Below, piece after piece: positions 5,744 through 16,616 of a DNA stretch of 64,000 bases. Numbering within the stretch: position 1 is the stretch's first letter; every line of letters starts with the position of its first letter. Below the pieces are notes generated by a model, which was not told where the DNA came from, did no database searches, and saw only the letters and a program-made list of their open reading frames with translations. A program made the position numbers and the translations under genes. Origin of the DNA: Cyclobacteriaceae bacterium (GTDB lineage Bacteria > Bacteroidota > Bacteroidia > Cytophagales > Cyclobacteriaceae). Where the stretch lies: assembly GCA_019638395.1 (NCBI GenBank), contig JAHBTX010000002.1, positions 806,001 to 870,000 on the forward strand, read 5' to 3'.

Positions 5744-8700
5744 ATGAGTACGGGCGCGAGTAAGATTGAGGATAAGATTAATGCCTTTACACGAAGGTAT
5801 TATCTTAATTTGTCGATTCGGGGACTTATCCTATCGCTTTCTTTATTGCTGGCCTACTTTCTGTTGGCTTCACTAATCGAATACAATCTTTGGCTGGGCA
5901 AAGCCGGAAGGCTGGTTATATTCAGTAGCTTCTTTCTGGTTGCGCTGTTTGCAGTGTTGCGATTTCTACGCGAACCCCTGCAATGGATTATCTATAAGAA
6001 AGGATTAGGAAAAGAGGAAAGTGCCCGCCTCATAGGAACTTACTTCCCTCATGTATCCGATAAACTTTTAAACCTGCTTCAGCTTACTTCCCAAAGCAAC
6101 AACGCATTGGCAGAAGCCGGCATTGTTCAAAAAGCCATGTCCATGCAGGACATTGCATTTGAACGCGCAATTGATTTAAAATCCAACCGCAAATATCTTA
6201 GGTACCTGCTTATACCTTTTGGGGTAATTATCATTTTATTGATTTTCAACTCTGGAATTTTTACCGAAAGCACAAAACGCATCGTTCAATTCAACCAGGA
6301 GTTTTCACCACAGGCTCCTTTCCGGTTTACTATTCAAAATGAAAACCTGAACGCATTCTTTAACGAAGATTTTACGCTTTCGCTTAAAATGGATGGGGAA
6401 GCGCTTCCGGAAGCGGTATATCTGGTAGCGGGTGATCTGCGCTGGAAGATGATAAGAGTAGCCCCCGGTGAGTTTCAATATACATTCGAGAACATTCAAC
6501 AATCAATTGATTTTGTATTTGAAGCATCCGGCTTTTTCTCTGATGGTTATACGTTATCCATCATCAACCGGCCCGAAATAAACGCTTTAAACGTTGTGTT
6601 AGATTACCCTGCTTACCTGGGTTTAAAACCACAGCAGCTGAACAATGCCGGCAACTTACAAGTACCCGAAGGCACAAAAATTACCTGGTCAATAGCCACC
6701 GCCTTTGCACAAAAAGCAACGCTTTTTTTTGCTGAGGGTAGCCCCAACAACATGCAGCTTATTGATAATAATTTGTTTGCTTTTGGCCGCGCCTTCAATA
6801 ACCCCGAAGATTATTGGATAGAGTTGGAAAATGAAAAGAGTAAGAACAAAGACCGCCTCGCATATCGCGTAGATGTTGTTAAAGATCAGTATCCGCAAAT
6901 AGCTGTTGAAAACCTGCAAGACTCTGTTCTGTATAAAAACATTTTAATAGGCGGATCTATTACTGACGATTATGGTTTAACCGCACTTCAACTCAACTAC
7001 ACCGTAATTACCGGCAACAAAGAACAACCCCGCCAAAAGCGTGCTATACCAATTGCTCGCAACAACAAACAACAAAATTTTTTCTTCCAATGGCCTATCG
7101 ATTCCATTAATCTAAAGCCTGGCGACAAGTTAGTTTACCATTTACAGGTTTGGGATAGTGATGGTGTAAATGGGCGCAAGTCTGCACGCAGTGCTGATTA
7201 CACATTTGCATTACCTGGCGAAGCTGATTTGAAAGCCAGTATTGCACAAAACCAAAAATCCGCAGAACGAAAAATTGATGAGGGAATTCAGCGTGCCCGC
7301 GAATTGCAAAAATCGATAGACGATGCCCAGCAAAAACTTCGGGGTAAACAATCGCTTGACTGGCAGGATAAAAAAATGCTGGAAGACTTACTAAACCAGA
7401 AAACAAAACTGGACGAGGCGCTTAAAAATTTACAACAAGAAAACAAGTTGTTAGAGCAGAAGAAGAATGCTTTTACCGAGGAGAACGAACGCATTCGTGA
7501 AAAGTCAGAGCAGATTCAAAAGTTAATGAATGAGCTACTGGATGAAGAAACCAAAAAAATGTTTGAGGAGTTGCAAAAACTGCTGCAGGAAAATACCGAT
7601 GTAAATCAAGTGCAGAAAATGTTAGAGAAGCTTGATCGCAAGGAGATTAATCTCGAAAAAGAATTAGAGCGAACCCTCTCACTTTTCAAAGAGTTACAAT
7701 ACGATTACAAATTAGATCAGGCCATACAGGAGCTTAAGAATCAAACAGAAAAGCAAGAACAGCTTTTAGAAAAAACAGAAAAGCACGATGGGAACAAGAG
7801 CGACCCTTCGGCTAAGCAATCGCAGGAAGAACTTGCGCAGGAACAAAAGGACTTAAAGGAAAACTTTGAAAAGCTAGAAGAACAATTACAAGAATTAGAC
7901 AAGCTGGGTGAAGAGTTGAGCAAAGAAGAAAGTTCTGATGCCGATAGCCAGGAAGAAATAAATAAATCGCAAGAGGAGAGCGAACAAGCCTTAGAAAAGG
8001 GAGATAATAAGAAATCGGGACAGAAACAGAAGCAAGCCATTTCTAAAATGAAAGCGATGGCTAAAAAGATGGAAGGCATGCAAAGCGCCATGCAAATGGA
8101 AATGGATCAGCAAAACTTAGAGAGTTTGCGGCAAATTATTCATGGATTGGTTAAACTTTCGTTTGATCAGGAATCGCTCATCAAAGATTTTGGACCGATT
8201 CAACAAACCGATCCGCGGTATGTTACACTCTCACAAAATCAATTAAAGCTAAAAGATGACGCTAAAGTGCTGGAAGACAGTTTGTTAGAGTTATCAAAAA
8301 AGGATGCGTTCATGGGTTCTATTGTTACCAAAGAAGTGGGAGAGTTGAACGATCACATCGATAAAGCGGTATTTAACATTAAGGAGAGAAGAAAGGCAAA
8401 TGCCAGTACCGAAATGCAACTGTCAATGACAAGTATTAACAATCTTGCCTTAATGTTAAACGATCATTTTGAAATGATGATGAATATGATGGCTAATGCC
8501 AAGCCTGGTAAAGGCAAAAAGAAATCAGGCCAGCCCACCTCGCTTGGCAAAATGCAGGAGATGTTAAACCAGCAGATGCAAGAATTAAAAAACGAAGGTG
8601 GCAAGCAGGGGCGTGAACTTTCAGAAGAATTTGCGCGCATGGCAGCAGAGCAAGAGCGCATTCGCAGAGCACTTCAAGAGATGCAGGAAAAACTGAAACA

Positions 8701-9043
8701 GCAAGGCGGTCAGAGCTTAGGAGATGATATCCCCACGAAAATGGAACAAACCGAAATGGATCTGGTTAATAAGCAGATTACGGAGCAAACCATTCAACGG
8801 CAGAAAGAAATTTTAAGCCGGCTGCTTGAGTCTGAAAAATCGATGCGCGAACAGGATCTCGATGATGAACGTAAAGGTGAGTCGGCAAAGGATTACACAA
8901 ATCAAATTCCCTCGGCTTTTGATGAATATTTAAGATTAAAAGAAAAAGAAGTAGAATTGCTGAAAACCGTGCCACCCAAGCTTTATCCTTATTACAAGCA
9001 GGAGGTAGGCGAGTATTTTAAACGCATTAAAACACAAGACTGA
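5744..9043 (+). CDS. DUF4175 family large membrane-anchored coiled-coil protein
   Basis: The 1099-aa product has two predicted membrane helices near residues 24-45 and 55-75 and a third near 152-170. A roughly 300-residue extracytoplasmic-looking region of beta-rich sequence follows. From about residue 490 the protein is extremely rich in Gln, Glu and Lys, with long coiled coils and Met/Gln-rich helices. This layout matches the Bacteroidota DUF4175 family, whose function is not established. It starts a tight plus-strand run: the RsbW-like gene begins 10 bp after its stop, and ybeY and mnmG follow. Conserved linkage to RNA-processing genes could mean a shared promoter rather than shared function. 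Confidence 0.85.
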   Translation: MSTGASKIEDKINAFTRRYYLNLSIRGLILSLSLLLAYFLLASLIEYNLWLGKAGRLVIFSSFFLVALFAVLRFLREPLQWIIYKKGLGKEESARLIGTYFPHVSDKLLNLLQLTSQSNNALAEAGIVQKAMSMQDIAFERAIDLKSNRKYLRYLLIPFGVIIILLIFNSGIFTESTKRIVQFNQEFSPQAPFRFTIQNENLNAFFNEDFTLSLKMDGEALPEAVYLVAGDLRWKMIRVAPGEFQYTFENIQQSIDFVFEASGFFSDGYTLSIINRPEINALNVVLDYPAYLGLKPQQLNNAGNLQVPEGTKITWSIATAFAQKATLFFAEGSPNNMQLIDNNLFAFGRAFNNPEDYWIELENEKSKNKDRLAYRVDVVKDQYPQIAVENLQDSVLYKNILIGGSITDDYGLTALQLNYTVITGNKEQPRQKRAIPIARNNKQQNFFFQWPIDSINLKPGDKLVYHLQVWDSDGVNGRKSARSADYTFALPGEADLKASIAQNQKSAERKIDEGIQRARELQKSIDDAQQKLRGKQSLDWQDKKMLEDLLNQKTKLDEALKNLQQENKLLEQKKNAFTEENERIREKSEQIQKLMNELLDEETKKMFEELQKLLQENTDVNQVQKMLEKLDRKEINLEKELERTLSLFKELQYDYKLDQAIQELKNQTEKQEQLLEKTEKHDGNKSDPSAKQSQEELAQEQKDLKENFEKLEEQLQELDKLGEELSKEESSDADSQEEINKSQEESEQALEKGDNKKSGQKQKQAISKMKAMAKKMEGMQSAMQMEMDQQNLESLRQIIHGLVKLSFDQESLIKDFGPIQQTDPRYVTLSQNQLKLKDDAKVLEDSLLELSKKDAFMGSIVTKEVGELNDHIDKAVFNIKERRKANASTEMQLSMTSINNLALMLNDHFEMMMNMMANAKPGKGKKKSGQPTSLGKMQEMLNQQMQELKNEGGKQGRELSEEFARMAAEQERIRRALQEMQEKLKQQGGQSLGDDIPTKMEQTEMDLVNKQITEQTIQRQKEILSRLLESEKSMREQDLDDERKGESAKDYTNQIPSAFDEYLRLKEKEVELLKTVPPKLYPYYKQEVGEYFKRIKTQD

Positions 9044-9875: not shown

Positions 9876-9891
9876 CGTTCCACGTGGAACC
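9876..9891. promoter_or_regulatory. parS-like site 1 (ParB binding)
   Basis: CGTTCCACGTGGAACC contains a perfect 14-bp palindrome, GTTCCACGTGGAAC. It shares the CACGTG core and flanks with the parS consensus TGTTnCACGTGAAACA, differing at the outermost base on each side and at one inner base. It starts two bases after the ybeY stop. Confidence 0.8.
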
Positions 9892-9911
9892 CAGGATTGA
9901 AGTCCATACTT

Positions 9912-9927
9912 TGTTCCACGTGAAACA
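9912..9927. promoter_or_regulatory. parS site 2 (ParB binding), exact consensus
   Basis: TGTTCCACGTGAAACA matches the 16-bp bacterial chromosomal parS consensus at every defined position. Its centre is 36 bp from that of site 1, and both lie in the 66-bp ybeY-mnmG gap. ParB bound here would load ParB-CTP clamps and SMC near the origin. parA and parB are not in this window. Confidence 0.92.
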
Positions 9928-9940
9928 CAATCCCAAAAAG

Positions 9941-11803
9941 ATGTTTCCAGAGTACGATGTAATTGTGGTGGGTGCGGGGCATGCCGGCTGTGAAGCTGCT
10001 GCTGCTGCCGCTAACATGGGTTCCAAAGTTCTTTTGGTAACAATGAACATGAACACAATTGCCCAAATGTCGTGCAACCCCGCAATGGGCGGAGTGGCCA
10101 AAGGGCAGATTGTGCGCGAAATAGATGCCCTGGGTGGTTACTCTGGAATAGTGTCTGACAAATCAATGATTCAGTTCAGAATGCTAAACCTCTCGAAGGG
10201 CCCAGCCATGTGGAGCCCAAGGACCCAAAATGACAGAGTGCTATTCTCGGAACAATGGCGTTTAATGCTTGAGCGAACGCCAAATCTAGATTTCTGGCAA
10301 GAGATGGTAGCCGGATTAGTTGTTAAAGGTAAAAGAGTTGTAGGGGTAAGAACTTCGCTTGGTTTGGAGATAATGGGCAAATCGGTAGTTCTAACTAACG
10401 GAACCTTCCTGAATGGTAAAATTCATATTGGAGAAAAGAACTTTGGTGGTGGCCGGGCGGCAGAACGGGCGGCCACCGGAATAACTGAACAACTGGTTGA
10501 ATTAGGGTTTGAAGCTGGTCGTATGAAAACAGGAACTCCTCCAAGAATAGATGGCCGGAGCTTAAATTATGACCTTATGGAAGAGCAGCCTGGGGACAAT
10601 GAACCGGGCAAGTTCTCATACTCCGATACAAAAGCACCCAACAAACAATTGAGTTGCTGGATCACTTACACCAACGAAAATGTGCATAAACAATTGGAGC
10701 AAGGCTTTGACAGATCGCCCATGTTTCAAGGCCGTATAAAGGGATTGGGGCCCCGCTATTGCCCTTCAATCGAAGATAAAATCAATCGTTTTGCAGAACG
10801 CGAACGCCATCAGATTTTTGTTGAACCTGAAGGCTGGAATACCGTGGAAATCTACGTGAATGGATTCTCTACCTCGCTGCCGGAAGACATACAGTACAAA
10901 GCATTGCGTTTGATACCCGGTTTTGAGAATGCTAAAATGTTCCGTCCAGGTTACGCAATTGAGTATGATTTCTTTCCGCCTACTCAACTAAAGACAACCC
11001 TAGAGACACAACTAATTGATAATCTGTATTTTGCGGGCCAAATCAATGGAACAACCGGTTATGAAGAAGCGGCCTGTCAAGGATTAATGGCTGGAATAAA
11101 CGCGCATAACAAAGTACATAATAAAGAACCTTTCATCTTGAAGCGATCTGAAGCCTACATAGGTGTGTTGATAGATGATCTTGTAAACAAGGGTACACAG
11201 GAGCCATACCGCATGTTTACATCGCGTGCTGAGTACAGGATTTTGTTGCGCCAGGATAACGCAGATTTACGACTAACAGAACTTGGCTACAAGCTTGGTC
11301 TTGCAGATGAATTGCGCTTTGAAAAAATCCTAACCAAGAAAAACACCATGGAACAACTCTCTAAAGCACTTACAGAAATGAGAGCAGAACCAGAAGCTGT
11401 TAACAAAGGTTTGGAGAAATTGGGAACCTCAACTATCACAGAAAAAGTATCAATTGTTTCACTGCTTCGTAGGCCACAGATTGGAATGAACGATTTATCG
11501 AACCTGGATAACGGAATTAAAAAAATCCTCCATCAATTCAGTTATGATGTTCAACAGCAAGTTGAAATCAATCTGAAATATGAATCATATATAGAGCGGG
11601 AGCAAAAGCTTGCCGAAAAAATTGAAAGCTTAGAAAATTATAAAATTCTACCCGATTTTGATTACGACCGGGTAAAAGCATTATCATCTGAGGCGCGGGA
11701 AAAACTTAAACGCATCCGCCCGGAAACAATAGGGCAGATGTCGCGAATAAGTGGAGTATCGCCTGCCGATGTTTCAATCTTAACCGTGTATCTTGGCAAG
11801 TAA
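9941..11803 (+). CDS. mnmG: tRNA uridine-5-carboxymethylaminomethyl modification enzyme MnmG (GidA)
   Basis: MnmG, with MnmE, uses FAD, NADH and methylene-THF to form the cmnm5 modification at wobble U34 of tRNA. The 620-aa product has the expected length. An N-terminal dinucleotide-binding motif VGAGHAGCEAA (from residue 8) is followed by NPAMGGVAKG and, near the C terminus, RIRPETIGQMSRISGVSPAD. An in-frame GTG at 9884 would extend the protein by 19 residues but lies inside a parS site, so the ATG at 9941 was chosen. mnmG is often close to the replication origin, consistent with the parS and oriC-like signals around it. rsmG (gidB) is not adjacent. Confidence 0.96.
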   Translation: MFPEYDVIVVGAGHAGCEAAAAAANMGSKVLLVTMNMNTIAQMSCNPAMGGVAKGQIVREIDALGGYSGIVSDKSMIQFRMLNLSKGPAMWSPRTQNDRVLFSEQWRLMLERTPNLDFWQEMVAGLVVKGKRVVGVRTSLGLEIMGKSVVLTNGTFLNGKIHIGEKNFGGGRAAERAATGITEQLVELGFEAGRMKTGTPPRIDGRSLNYDLMEEQPGDNEPGKFSYSDTKAPNKQLSCWITYTNENVHKQLEQGFDRSPMFQGRIKGLGPRYCPSIEDKINRFAERERHQIFVEPEGWNTVEIYVNGFSTSLPEDIQYKALRLIPGFENAKMFRPGYAIEYDFFPPTQLKTTLETQLIDNLYFAGQINGTTGYEEAACQGLMAGINAHNKVHNKEPFILKRSEAYIGVLIDDLVNKGTQEPYRMFTSRAEYRILLRQDNADLRLTELGYKLGLADELRFEKILTKKNTMEQLSKALTEMRAEPEAVNKGLEKLGTSTITEKVSIVSLLRRPQIGMNDLSNLDNGIKKILHQFSYDVQQQVEINLKYESYIEREQKLAEKIESLENYKILPDFDYDRVKALSSEAREKLKRIRPETIGQMSRISGVSPADVSILTVYLGK

Positions 11804-12688
11804 ATGATACTCGAAACATTGTCGGCCTGCCCGATCTGTCAAAGTACTTCTTTCGCACCATTCATATCGGCTAAAGATTATACCGTTAGTCAACAGGAAT
11901 TCAATATTGTAACATGCCAAAATTGTTCTTTTCGATTTACAAACCCGCGACCAGGCATCAATAACATACAGGCATATTACAAGTCAGAAAAGTATATCTC
12001 GCATACGGTTGGCTCAAAATCAATAATAGATAGGCTATACAGGTTGCTTCGCACTTATACCCTTAAGTGGAAATACGAACTTATTAATGAATTTTCAGAT
12101 GAAAAAACGCTACTCGACTACGGGTGCGGAACAGGAAACTTCCTTTCATACGTGCAGCATAAAGGATGGAATGTTACCGGGGTAGAGCCAGCGCAAGAAG
12201 CACGTGCAATAGCCAAACAAAAAGCCACTATATACGAACAACTTGAAACAATAGAACAAAAATATTCAATAGTTACGCTTTGGCATGTGTTAGAACATGT
12301 GCATAACCTAACAACAACTTTACAGGAATTGAAAAAAAAACTTACACGTTCTGGCACCATTTTTATAGCTGTTCCAAATTATAAAAGTGCAGACGCACAA
12401 TTATACAAACAGCACTGGGCCGCATACGATGTTCCCCGGCACTTGTGGCACTTCGATAAAGGGGTTATGAATAATATACTTATGCAAACAGGTTTTGAAG
12501 TAAAAAAAATTATCCCAATGAAATTAGATGCTTACTATGTTGCGCTTTTAAGCGAAGGTTATAAAAACCCTCACACCATGCAGTTATTAAACTATATAAA
12601 CGCGCTTAAAAATGGCTGGCTATCTAACCATCAAGCCAAAGAGACTGGCGAGTATTCAAGTTTAATCTACATCGCGCAACACACGTGA
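11804..12688 (+). CDS. Class I SAM-dependent methyltransferase with N-terminal zinc-ribbon-like segment
   Basis: The 294-aa protein begins with two CxxC knuckles (CPICQS and CQNCSF), then a YYxSEKYISH segment. A Rossmann methyltransferase domain follows with motif I LDYGCGTGNFL and acidic motif II GVEPA. This arrangement is common in methyltransferases of cell-surface sugar or small-molecule pathways, but the substrate cannot be told. The ATG follows the mnmG TAA with no gap. The last four bases overlap the GTG start of the next gene, so these genes form one operon. Confidence 0.85.
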   Translation: MILETLSACPICQSTSFAPFISAKDYTVSQQEFNIVTCQNCSFRFTNPRPGINNIQAYYKSEKYISHTVGSKSIIDRLYRLLRTYTLKWKYELINEFSDEKTLLDYGCGTGNFLSYVQHKGWNVTGVEPAQEARAIAKQKATIYEQLETIEQKYSIVTLWHVLEHVHNLTTTLQELKKKLTRSGTIFIAVPNYKSADAQLYKQHWAAYDVPRHLWHFDKGVMNNILMQTGFEVKKIIPMKLDAYYVALLSEGYKNPHTMQLLNYINALKNGWLSNHQAKETGEYSSLIYIAQHT

Positions 12689-14295
12689 AACGCCTGCTAC
12701 CGCTTATTGCTATCCTGGCAGGCTGTGCTAGTGTTACCTCCCCAACCGGAGGACCCAAAGACGATACACCACCTGAACTTATAAACGCTTATCCGGCTAA
12801 CAACCAAAAAAACTTTAATGGTAAAGAAATAGAACTCACATTTAGTGAGATGATTAAACTAAAAGACCCAAAGGAAGAAATTCTGATTACACCCTCACCC
12901 GGAAAGGATACCAAATTTCTAGTTAAGAAAAATAAGCTAGTTATAGAACCAGAGTTTCCCTGGCAAGAAAATACAACCTATAGTTTAAACTTTCGCGATG
13001 GCGTTCAAGACCTGAATGAAGGTAACCCGGCAGAAAATTTACGGTTGGCATTTAGTACCGGTCCGATCATTGATTCCCTAAGTATTTCAGGAGCAGTAAA
13101 GGAAACATTCTCAGAGAAAACACCAGAAAAAATTACGGTAGCACTTTACCAACAAGACACATTTAACATCTTTAACCACATGCCCACATACTTTACCAAA
13201 AGTAACAAAGAGGGCAAATTTGTTATTCCTAACCTGAAATCCGGTAAATATTACGTATATGCTTTTGATGACAAAAATAAAAACCTAAAAGTTGATAGTA
13301 AAACAGAAAAGTTTGCATTTAAAGTAGATCCTATTCTGGTAAATCAAAACAAAGATTCTGTGATATTAACTCTTATACGAATAGATGCCAGACCCCTACA
13401 ACTAACTGCAGTGCGTCATACCGAAAAAACCTCGCGGGTGCGTTTTAACAAGGGAATCGATTCCCTTGCTGTAAAAAGTGAAAAATCGGTAAACTACTTT
13501 TTTGGAGATAACAGCAGCGAACTAATCTTCCAGCACAACCTTATAAATGCAGATTCAATTAAGATAAAATTACTTGCTGTTGATAGCATTGGCCAGCAGA
13601 TTGACTCAACTTTCTTTATCAAAAGAAGCGAAACCAAAATCCCTGTAGAAACATTTGCTCTTAAAGAATCTGCTTCAACTTACAACCATAACAAGAGAAT
13701 CTACACACACAAGATTACCTACAACAAAACGCTAAGTCACCTAATACCTGATAGTATATACATTCGTATCGATTCCGCTACAAGATTACCAATACCCCTT
13801 TCCAACATAGCAATCGACACAATCCGCCACATACTTCAACTTGAAACACCCGCTATTCCAACCGACACCTCCAAATCAAACAACAAACATCCAATTGCAT
13901 TAATCTTAGCCAAAGCCGCATTTATAACAACAGAACAAGACTCGTCCAAACGCATTGTTAAAGACATTAAGTTCGAAAAAGAGGAAGATAACGGTATGGT
14001 AAGTATAAAGGTAATTACGGCTGAAAAAAATTTTATTGTTCAGCTACTATCAGCAGATGACAAAGTGTTCGATGAAATAATAAATGTAAAAGAACACACC
14101 TTCAGGTTTGTTAAACCGAATGAATATAAACTACGTGTTATCATAGACACAAATGGAAATGGCAAATGGGATGCAGGAAACTTTTTTAAACGCAACGAAC
14201 CCGAAAAAACACTGTACTACCAATCAGATGAAGCAAAATATTCATTTCCTATCAGGGCAAATTGGGAATATGGGCCGTTGCTGCTAAGATTCTGA
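12685..14295 (+). CDS. Ig-like domain lipoprotein, 536 aa
   Basis: The product starts at GTG (GTGA overlap with the previous stop) and has a short lipoprotein signal, MKRLLPLIAILAGC, with Cys14. A PTGGPKDDTPP linker leads into a bacterial Ig-like domain (Ig_5 type; PPELINAYPANNQKNFNGKEIELTFSE region). A carboxypeptidase-regulatory-like repeat (FVIPNLKSGKYYVYAFDDKNKN) and a C-terminal DTNGNGKWDAG motif follow. This matches a widespread Bacteroidota family of outer-membrane lipoproteins of unknown role. No other ATG gives the signal peptide, which supports GTG. It is the last gene before the oriC-like block. Confidence 0.85.
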   Translation: MKRLLPLIAILAGCASVTSPTGGPKDDTPPELINAYPANNQKNFNGKEIELTFSEMIKLKDPKEEILITPSPGKDTKFLVKKNKLVIEPEFPWQENTTYSLNFRDGVQDLNEGNPAENLRLAFSTGPIIDSLSISGAVKETFSEKTPEKITVALYQQDTFNIFNHMPTYFTKSNKEGKFVIPNLKSGKYYVYAFDDKNKNLKVDSKTEKFAFKVDPILVNQNKDSVILTLIRIDARPLQLTAVRHTEKTSRVRFNKGIDSLAVKSEKSVNYFFGDNSSELIFQHNLINADSIKIKLLAVDSIGQQIDSTFFIKRSETKIPVETFALKESASTYNHNKRIYTHKITYNKTLSHLIPDSIYIRIDSATRLPIPLSNIAIDTIRHILQLETPAIPTDTSKSNNKHPIALILAKAAFITTEQDSSKRIVKDIKFEKEEDNGMVSIKVITAEKNFIVQLLSADDKVFDEIINVKEHTFRFVKPNEYKLRVIIDTNGNGKWDAGNFFKRNEPEKTLYYQSDEAKYSFPIRANWEYGPLLLRF

Positions 14296-14310
14296 ACAAC
14301 TTGTTAAAGC

Positions 14311-14319
14311 TGTGGATAA
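14311..14319 (-). promoter_or_regulatory. DnaA box, perfect consensus
   Basis: TGTGGATAA, i.e. TTATCCACA on the minus strand, 16 bp after the lipoprotein stop codon. Confidence 0.75.
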
Positions 14320-14551
14320 CCTGCGAGCTTATCACCAAGACTTAGCAAAAACCACTAAAACACGGGATAAAATGTTAAAATTAACAATCATACAACCCTT
14401 ATCCACCACCTGTTGAAAACATCAAACCAACCATACACAAATCCAAAACTATGTTCACAAAATTTAATTACCTTCGAAATCGGGCCATTAAAGCAGAAAG
14501 TAATTAATAATATATCCACAAAATCGACACCTACCGTTTAAAGACAGTACG

Positions 14552-14560
14552 TTATCCACA
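14552..14560 (+). promoter_or_regulatory. DnaA box, perfect consensus, next to A/T tract
   Basis: TTATCCACA ends one base before the annotated ATG of the TPR gene and 10 bp before the A/T tract. This is the box-to-DUE spacing style seen in bacterial origins. Confidence 0.75.
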
Positions 14561-14561
14561 T

Positions 14562-16616
14562 ATGCACAGGAATAAGTATTATTATTTAAATTTTAAATAT
14601 TATATAATAAGAATACAAGCCGCCTTATTATGTGCATTACTTTATTCTCAAATTTTTGCTCAGGATACTCAAGAAATACAAATTGCGAACGAATACATAC
14701 TGAAGGGCGAAAAAGAAAAGGCAATTGCACTGTATGAACAACTGGCAAAAAAAAATGAAAACATTGCGCTTATCCACAATAACTACTTTAATCTGCTGCT
14801 TGATGCTGGCCGTTTTACACAAGCTGAGGATTATATTGAGAAAATTATTAAACGAGACGCCCGGCTTACTTATCGGCTTGACCTCGGCATTGTTTATACC
14901 CGATCGGGCGATATTACTAAAGCCGATAAGTATTTTCGTGCCTTTATCAAAGCACAAGGTGAAGATGCTTACAGACTTAAAACCATTGCCGATTACCTGG
15001 CAGCCCGCAACCACATTGAGTATGCTATATTAGCTTTGCAACAGGCGAGGCAATCAGCTGGAAATAACCTCTACACACTTGAACTTGCCAACCTGTATCG
15101 TATTGCCGGTAAACGCGACCAGATGGTACACGAATACCTCAACTATGTAACGCAAACCCCGGCCAATATCAGCTATGTAAAAAACCTCATGCAAATTCTG
15201 CTATCAAAGCCTGAGGAATTGGAAGCACTTGAAAAACTTTTATACGATAAAGTTCAACAAAATCAGAATTCAGAAGTTTTTGCCGATTTATTGATATGGG
15301 TAAACCTGCAGCAAAAAAACTTTTATGGTGCATTTATTCAGGCACGCGCATTTGACAAACGCTTTAAAAAAGATCAGTCCAAAACGCTGGAGATAGCGCA
15401 AGTAGCATTAAACAATAACGATTATAATACTGCAGATAAAGCCTACAGTTTTCTTATTAAAGAATATGCAGGAACAGCCAGCGAACTTCCTGCGCGCTTG
15501 GGTTTAATTCAGGCACACGAAGCAAAGGTTAAAAGAAGCTATCCGGTAAACCGGGATTCTGTTAATTACCTGATTACCCAATATCAGAATTTTCGCACCA
15601 GCTATCCCGATCATCCTAATTCATTTGAAGCACATCTGAGTCAGGCCTTGTTATATGCTTATTACCTCGATCAGAAAGATTCGGCTGTGGCCAGCTTAAA
15701 TCGATTGATTGTAAACACAAAAATTTCACCAAATTTAAAAGCAAAGGCAAAAATTGAGTTGGGCGATATTTATTTGCTGAAAGAAGAACCGTGGGAAGCC
15801 ACCCTGCTTTATTCGCAAGTAGAAAAATCGCAGCGCGAAACACCCTTAGGCTATGAGGCTAAGTTGCGAAATGCCAAGCTCTCTTATTTTAAGGGCGAAT
15901 TTTTATTGGCACAGGAGCACCTGGATATTTTGAAGCAGGCAACTTCGCGCGAAATAGCAAACGATGCTATTGAATTAAGTATGCGCATAAAGGAAAATAC
16001 CTTTTACGATCCGGATGGTTCTGCGTTGAAAGAATTTGCTTCAATTGAATTACTGGTGGCACAAAACAAAAATGAACAGGCATTGCAACGTTTGAAAAAT
16101 TTTACGGTTGTGCGAAAAGTAAAGATGAACCGTGAAGAAGCCATTCGAAAAAATCTTTGGTCGCCCGATAAACAACTTACACAACAACAACTGGAGGAAT
16201 TAAAGAAAGTAATAGAGCGAAATAAGGAGAACATAGCAAACGATATGTTTAATGATATTGCAAGTACTGATTCGGTTTGGGTAGATGAAATTGTAAATAC
16301 CGATCAACTGGGAATAAAAGACGATGTGTATTGGTTAGAAGCAAACCTGCGTATGAAGCGTGGAGAATTTGAAGTGGCCAACGCGCTGTTAGAAAAAATA
16401 CTTACCGAATTTGGTGAAGATATTCTGGCCGATGATGCTTACTTTTTACAAGGCGAATTGCAAGAGCGCCATCTCAAAAACAAAGACAAGGCCATGGAAA
16501 TCTACCGCGAATTTTTAAATAAGTTTCCGGGTAGTGTGTTTGCTGCCGAAGCCCGAAAACGCTACCGTACGTTGCGTGGCGATTTTACAGAAGCCGAACC
16601 CACACCAAAGTTTTAA
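14562..16616 (+). CDS. Secreted tetratricopeptide repeat protein, 684 aa
   Basis: The product has an N-terminal export signal (RIQAALLCALLYSQIFAQ) preceded by an odd Tyr/Asn-rich stretch encoded by the A/T tract. From about residue 35 it is a solenoid of TPR and Sel1-like helical repeats through the end, including an outer-membrane-assembly-like C terminus (DDAYFLQGELQERHLKNKDKAMEIYREFL...FPGSVFAAEARKRYR). It is probably a periplasmic scaffold; no catalytic motif is seen. The ATG at 14562 directly follows a DnaA box, and no nearer ATG would keep the signal peptide, so the start is likely but not certain. The GDPD gene follows after 3 bp. Confidence 0.8.
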   Translation: MHRNKYYYLNFKYYIIRIQAALLCALLYSQIFAQDTQEIQIANEYILKGEKEKAIALYEQLAKKNENIALIHNNYFNLLLDAGRFTQAEDYIEKIIKRDARLTYRLDLGIVYTRSGDITKADKYFRAFIKAQGEDAYRLKTIADYLAARNHIEYAILALQQARQSAGNNLYTLELANLYRIAGKRDQMVHEYLNYVTQTPANISYVKNLMQILLSKPEELEALEKLLYDKVQQNQNSEVFADLLIWVNLQQKNFYGAFIQARAFDKRFKKDQSKTLEIAQVALNNNDYNTADKAYSFLIKEYAGTASELPARLGLIQAHEAKVKRSYPVNRDSVNYLITQYQNFRTSYPDHPNSFEAHLSQALLYAYYLDQKDSAVASLNRLIVNTKISPNLKAKAKIELGDIYLLKEEPWEATLLYSQVEKSQRETPLGYEAKLRNAKLSYFKGEFLLAQEHLDILKQATSREIANDAIELSMRIKENTFYDPDGSALKEFASIELLVAQNKNEQALQRLKNFTVVRKVKMNREEAIRKNLWSPDKQLTQQQLEELKKVIERNKENIANDMFNDIASTDSVWVDEIVNTDQLGIKDDVYWLEANLRMKRGEFEVANALLEKILTEFGEDILADDAYFLQGELQERHLKNKDKAMEIYREFLNKFPGSVFAAEARKRYRTLRGDFTEAEPTPKF
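14571..14610. other. A/T tract, possible DNA unwinding element
   Basis: 39 of 40 bases are A or T, with overlapping TTTAAATTTTAAATATT-like self-complementary runs. The tract also encodes residues 4-17 of the TPR protein (Asn, Tyr, Leu, Phe, Lys, Ile only), an unusual composition ahead of a signal-peptide core. A dual coding/DUE role is inferred. Confidence 0.6.

Follow-up and report, generated by a model that had tools for sequence, protein, structure and literature searches.

The block at positions 14296–14615 of the DNA analysed here (a 64-kb stretch, hereafter the window) is very probably oriC, the site at which chromosome replication starts, in a member of the Cytophagales that probably belongs to the Cyclobacteriaceae. 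We put the probability of this reading at about 0.92. The predicted origin comprises a gene-free block together with the overlapping start of a gene for a TPR protein. The assignment to oriC, made in a preliminary description of the window, is supported by a set of DnaA boxes, an A/T-rich tract, conservation in relatives, a pair of parS sites and the GC skew.

The gene-free block, defined as sequence without a reading frame of at least 100 aa, spans 14296–14561 (266 bp) and is flanked by ORFs at 12685–14295 and 14562–16616. As the preliminary description had claimed, it contains four DnaA boxes, two of them perfect and two with one mismatch, between 14311 and 14560. In the box search, a perfect box, TTATCCACA, was found on the minus strand at the left edge of the block (14311–14319), followed on the plus strand by the one-mismatch boxes TTATCCACC (14399–14407) and ATATCCACA (14512–14520) and by a second perfect TTATCCACA (14552–14560), the last box before the A/T tract. 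Positions 14311–14320 and 14551–14560 form an exact inverted repeat. Another perfect box on the plus strand, inside the TPR gene (14770–14778), was not counted as part of oriC. No RNA or tRNA features were found in the window at the thresholds of the tools, and a promoter and terminator scan of the region returned no more matches than were obtained in shuffled sequences.

The window as a whole contains 27 boxes with at most one mismatch, compared with 17.7 expected, and this number is reached in one of 100 shuffles. When 300-bp windows were scored for boxes with at most one mismatch, the locus ranked first in the 434 kb examined of its own genome. The 4.78-Mb draft genome contains 72 perfect boxes (42 + 30), versus 53 matches to the pattern read backwards. 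Three perfect boxes occur within 500 bp only here, the triple including the coding box at 14770, and the number of such triples expected at random in the draft is, by arithmetic, about 0.002. A stronger cluster elsewhere, which would have spoken against the assignment, was thus absent from the draft by this measure, including the vicinity of dnaA. The sole other pair of perfect boxes within 500 bp in the draft consists of two opposed boxes 14 bp apart (G000:C21:211444–211475).

The dnaA gene is located on contig C21 and not on the contig of the window, which bears out the earlier claim that it is not adjacent. Within 3,486 bp around dnaA there are no boxes with at most one mismatch, compared with 1.0 expected, and a dnaA-linked origin was rejected for this genome on the ground that no box surrounds the gene. 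In the relative G023, dnaA is at 1.218 Mb and the locus at 2.575 Mb. Same-sized dnaA stretches of seven relatives contain one to three boxes with at most one mismatch; the most, three including a perfect one, were seen in the dnaA region of G007 (L115), where they are perhaps involved in dnaA autoregulation. The related claim that a dnaA-based search would miss this origin stands in that placement by dnaA would be wrong, with the correction that dnaA-distant origins have already been described as common in the phylum.

The A/T tract, a candidate DNA-unwinding element, occupies 14571–14610, begins 10 bp past the last box and, with 39 A/T of 40, exceeds every other 40-mer of the window in A/T content. 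The tract had been described as lying next to the boxes; its composition and its proximity to the boxes hold, with the correction that it lies outside the gene-free block and is coding, inside codons 4–17 of the TPR frame. Just before the tract, the plus-strand core at 14552–14568 consists of the last perfect box followed directly by TATGCACA, a possible weak second box, and holds the TPR start codon. The core follows the pattern TTATCCACA-(A/T)ATGCACA, about three bases, a stretch resembling CTAATAACTATTATAT, and then A/T-rich sequence.

For comparison with relatives, 58 genomes were searched with the lipoprotein-like gene that precedes the block; 55 yielded a match, and loci were taken from the best 30, in which the flanking protein is 40–70% identical. 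Same-genus counts refer to 29 of these 30 loci, our own included; L050, with only 219 bp downstream, was dropped. In an alignment of the 29 loci, 14556–14575 is the best conserved 20-bp segment of the block, with mean top-base frequencies of 0.81 and 0.76, and the A/T content is 0.82 at 271–315 bases past the stop of the lipoprotein-like gene versus 0.58 at 501–900. A search from position 140 onwards found no good core in L047 and L049. The BUS criteria given in PMC8287927 comprise a DnaA box, a spacer of 0–16 bp and at least three DnaA-trios. In the window, four trios follow a 15-bp spacer, and at least three trios are present in 14 of the 29 same-genus loci versus 1091 of 5800 random positions; the control is coding and less A/T-rich, which makes this excess no more than suggestive.

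The TPR gene (14562–16616, plus strand) thus starts inside the oriC core. Its product has a leader-like N-terminus, MHRNKYYYLNFKYYIIRIQ, rich in Tyr, Asn, Ile and Lys, and ATG 14562 is the sole open start from 30 bp before to 80 bp past the last box. Of the 29 same-genus loci, 28 have a start codon whose frame runs on without a stop as far as the fragment reaches. In 17 of those 28, an ATG lies one base past the last box, within ATGCACA or ATGAACA (L045 also has an open TTG upstream); in ten other loci, the first ATG is found at +7, +14 or +19 with a box and the tract retained. Such movement of the start codon around a retained box and tract suggests that it is the DNA element itself that is being preserved. 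What is less usual about the find is that the opening core overlaps a gene start, and no such overlap was met in the open-licence literature, which cannot show that the locus is unreported. More speculatively, the opening core might form an integral part of the TPR gene start, such that initiation shapes the leader and that DnaA at oriC could act as a switch for the gene and couple a probably exported protein to the replication cycle; we regard this as a tentative idea, rather doubtful at present.

The gene on the left flank of oriC (12685–14295, plus strand) encodes an Ig-like (Big_5), lipoprotein-like protein, the early Cys of which is invariant across 24 aligned relatives, as in lipoproteins. 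Its first named relatives come from Cyclobacteriaceae/Cytophagales MAGs (L130–L134; 38–56% identity), and the next from genera that include Chryseotalea, Rhodocytophaga, Larkinella and Algoriphagus; the host is accordingly assigned to Cytophagales and, with less certainty, to Cyclobacteriaceae. Further upstream is mnmG (gidA; 9884–11803, plus strand; TIGR00136, E 8.3e-258), and the boxes lie 2.5 kb past its end, behind a methyltransferase gene and the lipoprotein-like gene. The highest AT skew of all 2-kb windows, 0.31, occurs at 7001–9000, within a 1099-aa DUF4175-like gene and in its 3' part.

The parS sites said to lie near the block proved real. At the start of the mnmG frame, 4.4 kb from the box cluster, are a parS site at 9912–9927 (plus strand; one mismatch to TGTTCCACGTGGAACA) and a parS-like site at 9876–9891 (plus strand; two mismatches). 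The listed start of mnmG is GTG 9884, but the TIGR00136 match starts at residue 24, so that the real start may lie past both sites. Across the own genome, the 16-mer TGTTYCACGTGRAACA is matched exactly once (9912) and with two mismatches at seven further places, where the inner 14 bases are intact only at 9876; the weak matches amount to noise, because there are 8 places in all versus 9 for the backwards control. Exact 14-mer cores occur twice in the genome, both at the mnmG start and 36 bp apart. The position of the pair is shared with all ten relatives searched: each has exactly two sites matching the 14-mer GTTYCACGTGRAAC, 36–88 bp apart (reversed control, 0), and the nearer site lies 2.75–2.9 kb before the lipoprotein-like gene (2.76 kb in the window). 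In named loci (described below) and in the window, mnmG itself was located, with parS at its start. Two ParB-family genes are present in the own genome.

In the own contig and in the relative G023, the GC skew places the origin in the same region. The own draft consists of 27 contigs, one of which was used; along a contiguous 418.5 kb of it, the GC-skew minimum is at 785,597, 35 kb from the locus. The skew is 0.025 to the right of the locus and −0.001 to the left, a weak difference whose p value of 0.004 is optimistic because of the neighbouring 10-kb windows. The relative G023, assembled as one contig of 4.26 Mb, was sampled in 40 stretches of 20 kb. Its best five listed grid positions for an origin are 2.58–2.66 Mb, and the locus, at 2.575 Mb, gives just as good a fit: none of 5000 permutations was as good at the locus, and none of 200 was as good as the best free fit. 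The fine minimum of G023, within a contiguous 233 kb, is at 2,545,373, 29 kb from the locus, so that in both genomes the check for a skew minimum near the locus came out in favour of the origin. Gene direction in G023 also fits (75 of 5000 permutations), and its AT skew shows no fit (3814 of 5000 permutations as good). In G030, the main contig of which was treated as a circle, 9 of 5000 permutations were as good and the cumulative minimum in the sample (1.76 Mb) adjoins the locus (1.749 Mb); the best square-wave fit is at 2.04–2.30 Mb and not at 1.75 Mb, and the region is thus supported loosely. The GC skew of G039 speaks against the locus, with 1026 of 5000 permutations as good and a best fit at 2.82–3.24 Mb versus the locus at 3.67 Mb.

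The distances of 29 kb (G023) and 35 kb (own contig) between locus and minimum, both on the mnmG side, would suit a different function, namely a cluster that titrates or regulates DnaA while the true origin lies elsewhere within about 50 kb. Clusters of this type, datA and DARS, exist in E. coli. We consider this improbable, as the A/T tract, the conserved box-to-tract core and the parS pair are features of an origin, and the triple of perfect boxes has no counterpart in the draft. If the block is oriC, DnaA would bind the left reverse box and the three forward boxes, which are oriented toward the A/T tract; starting at the last box (14552), it would extend over 14571–14610, open the helix and let the helicase load. 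ParB bound to the two sites at the mnmG start, at a distance of 4.4 kb, would label the origin region so that it can be segregated.

Conservation of the boxes is strong within the genus. In the first 620 bp past the lipoprotein-like gene, the same-genus loci contain 18 perfect and 87 one-mismatch boxes (105 in 17,980 bp), compared with no perfect and 16 one-mismatch boxes in the 88,213 bp of sequence up to the end of that gene, a density about 32 times higher past the gene than before its end. The boxes recur at about +15 on the minus strand and at about +103, +134, +216 and +255 on the plus strand, counted from the stop. A reverse box at +5 to +17, equivalent to that at 14311, is present in many same-genus loci, and the boxes at about +103 (equivalent to 14399) and about +216 (equivalent to 14512) each recur in several. 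A counterpart of the coding box at 14770 is present at +437 to +474 on the plus strand in 12 of the 29 counted loci, own included; as the box sits in codons reading LIHNN, this may be conservation of the protein. A chance cluster in an A/T-rich intergenic region is scarcely credible, for two perfect boxes within 250 bp are unremarkable alone (about 0.27 pairs expected at random in the draft), but box places recurring across same-genus loci at this density contradict it.

Beyond the genus, conservation is patchy. Among 20 of 22 order-level loci from other genera or families (G054 and G056 were left out), there are 19 perfect and 64 one-mismatch boxes past the gene (83 in 12,400 bp) and 18 perfect and 66 one-mismatch boxes before (84 in 182,044 bp); in seven of the 20, the 620 bp past the gene hold at most one box. 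A set of named relatives, of which 76 of 80 loci were counted (four with less than 800 bp downstream were left out), contains 72 perfect and 176 one-mismatch boxes past the gene (248 in 60,800 bp) and 51 perfect and 352 one-mismatch boxes before (403 in 883,615 bp). This set overlaps the others, with L130, L131 and L134 lying on contigs equal in length to those of G019, G020 and G010, respectively. The density ratios are somewhat inflated, because most of the sequence used for comparison is coding and its A/T content is below that of the block. At least three boxes in 800 bp are present in 28 of the 76 named loci and fewer than three in 48. Dense clusters are found in Larkinella, Runella, Dyadobacter, Algoriphagus, Rhodocytophaga and Microscilla; between one and four boxes are present in the five Pontibacter loci, and at most one in the Mucilaginibacter loci.

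Two groups of named loci carry one kind of site and not the other. Mucilaginibacter loci L164, L169, L172, L174 and L180–L183 have two or three parS sites at mnmG and no box with at most one mismatch in the 800 bp past the lipoprotein-like gene; in these loci the origin may have moved, with parS left in place. Loci L137, L140, L142, L149, L150, L158 and L171 of Larkinella, Runella and Dyadobacter have dense boxes and no exact parS 14-mer in the stretch examined.

By its triple of perfect boxes, the locus is the densest cluster in the own draft; the same is not true of the relatives G023 and G044. It does not rank among the top ten box clusters in the 973 kb of G023 that were sampled. In G044, a group of three perfect boxes falls within 805 bp at G044:C1:1527338–1528142, away from both dnaA and the locus, and the locus has one. 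In the full box list of G039, a 9-Mb genome from another family, the only group of three perfect boxes within 500 bp is this locus.

The named loci also bear on the possibility that the boxes are unrelated to initiation and regulate only transcription, within a DnaA-controlled promoter for the TPR gene. The core does cover the start codon, and one weak promoter-like match falls across the last box (2 matches in the region versus 2.4 in shuffles). However, the boxes persist where tblastn found no adjacent TPR homologue, in Algoriphagus (L141, L144–L146, L152 and L154) and Lunatimonas (L143), and neither the skew nor the parS pair would be explained, which makes this reading very unlikely.

The architecture of the proposed origin can be compared with that of known systems. 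The oriC of E. coli is located between mioC and gidA/mnmG and is similar to the locus described here in its linkage to mnmG, its separation from dnaA and the position of its boxes beside an A/T-rich opening region. In contrast to E. coli oriC, the opening region here lies in a coding start. Within the same order, Cytophagales, Xu et al. reportedly used the oriC of Cytophaga hutchinsonii in replicative plasmids in 2012. Plasmids based on oriC are in use (PMC5288383). An oriC far from dnaA is said to be common in Bacteroidetes (PMC4755523). The same source gives an oriC predicted by Ori-Finder on chromosome I of Prevotella intermedia OMA14, where, as here, DnaA boxes are located at the skew transition and dnaA is not nearby; unlike our organism, P. 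intermedia belongs to another order. In Flavobacteriaceae, Ori-Finder and GC skew were used to predict oriC in the mnmG region of Mariniflexile litorale KMM 9835 (PMC11278836, where a figure legend swaps oriC and ter relative to the text) and of Algorimicrobium KMM 8389 (PMC12843772). Both cases resemble ours in the mnmG location and the agreement with skew, and that of M. litorale also in the distance from dnaA. As described in those sources, the Flavobacteriaceae cases give a gene name only, whereas here the architecture is resolved, with boxes 2.5 kb past the end of mnmG. The open-licence literature yielded neither an oriC by mnmG in Cytophagales nor a DnaA origin in Cyclobacteriaceae, and the locus may be reported elsewhere.

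Given that dnaA-distant and mnmG-adjacent origins are already in print, the locus is best seen as a well-supported origin of a kind already known. For a group of Cytophagales represented mostly by metagenome assemblies, it supplies an origin that rests on evidence and would be misplaced if sought by dnaA alone. That its core overlaps a gene start is an oddity open to testing. The parS pair at mnmG and the boxes past the lipoprotein-like gene offer simple origin markers for draft genomes, and such markers could allow growth rates to be estimated from read depth.
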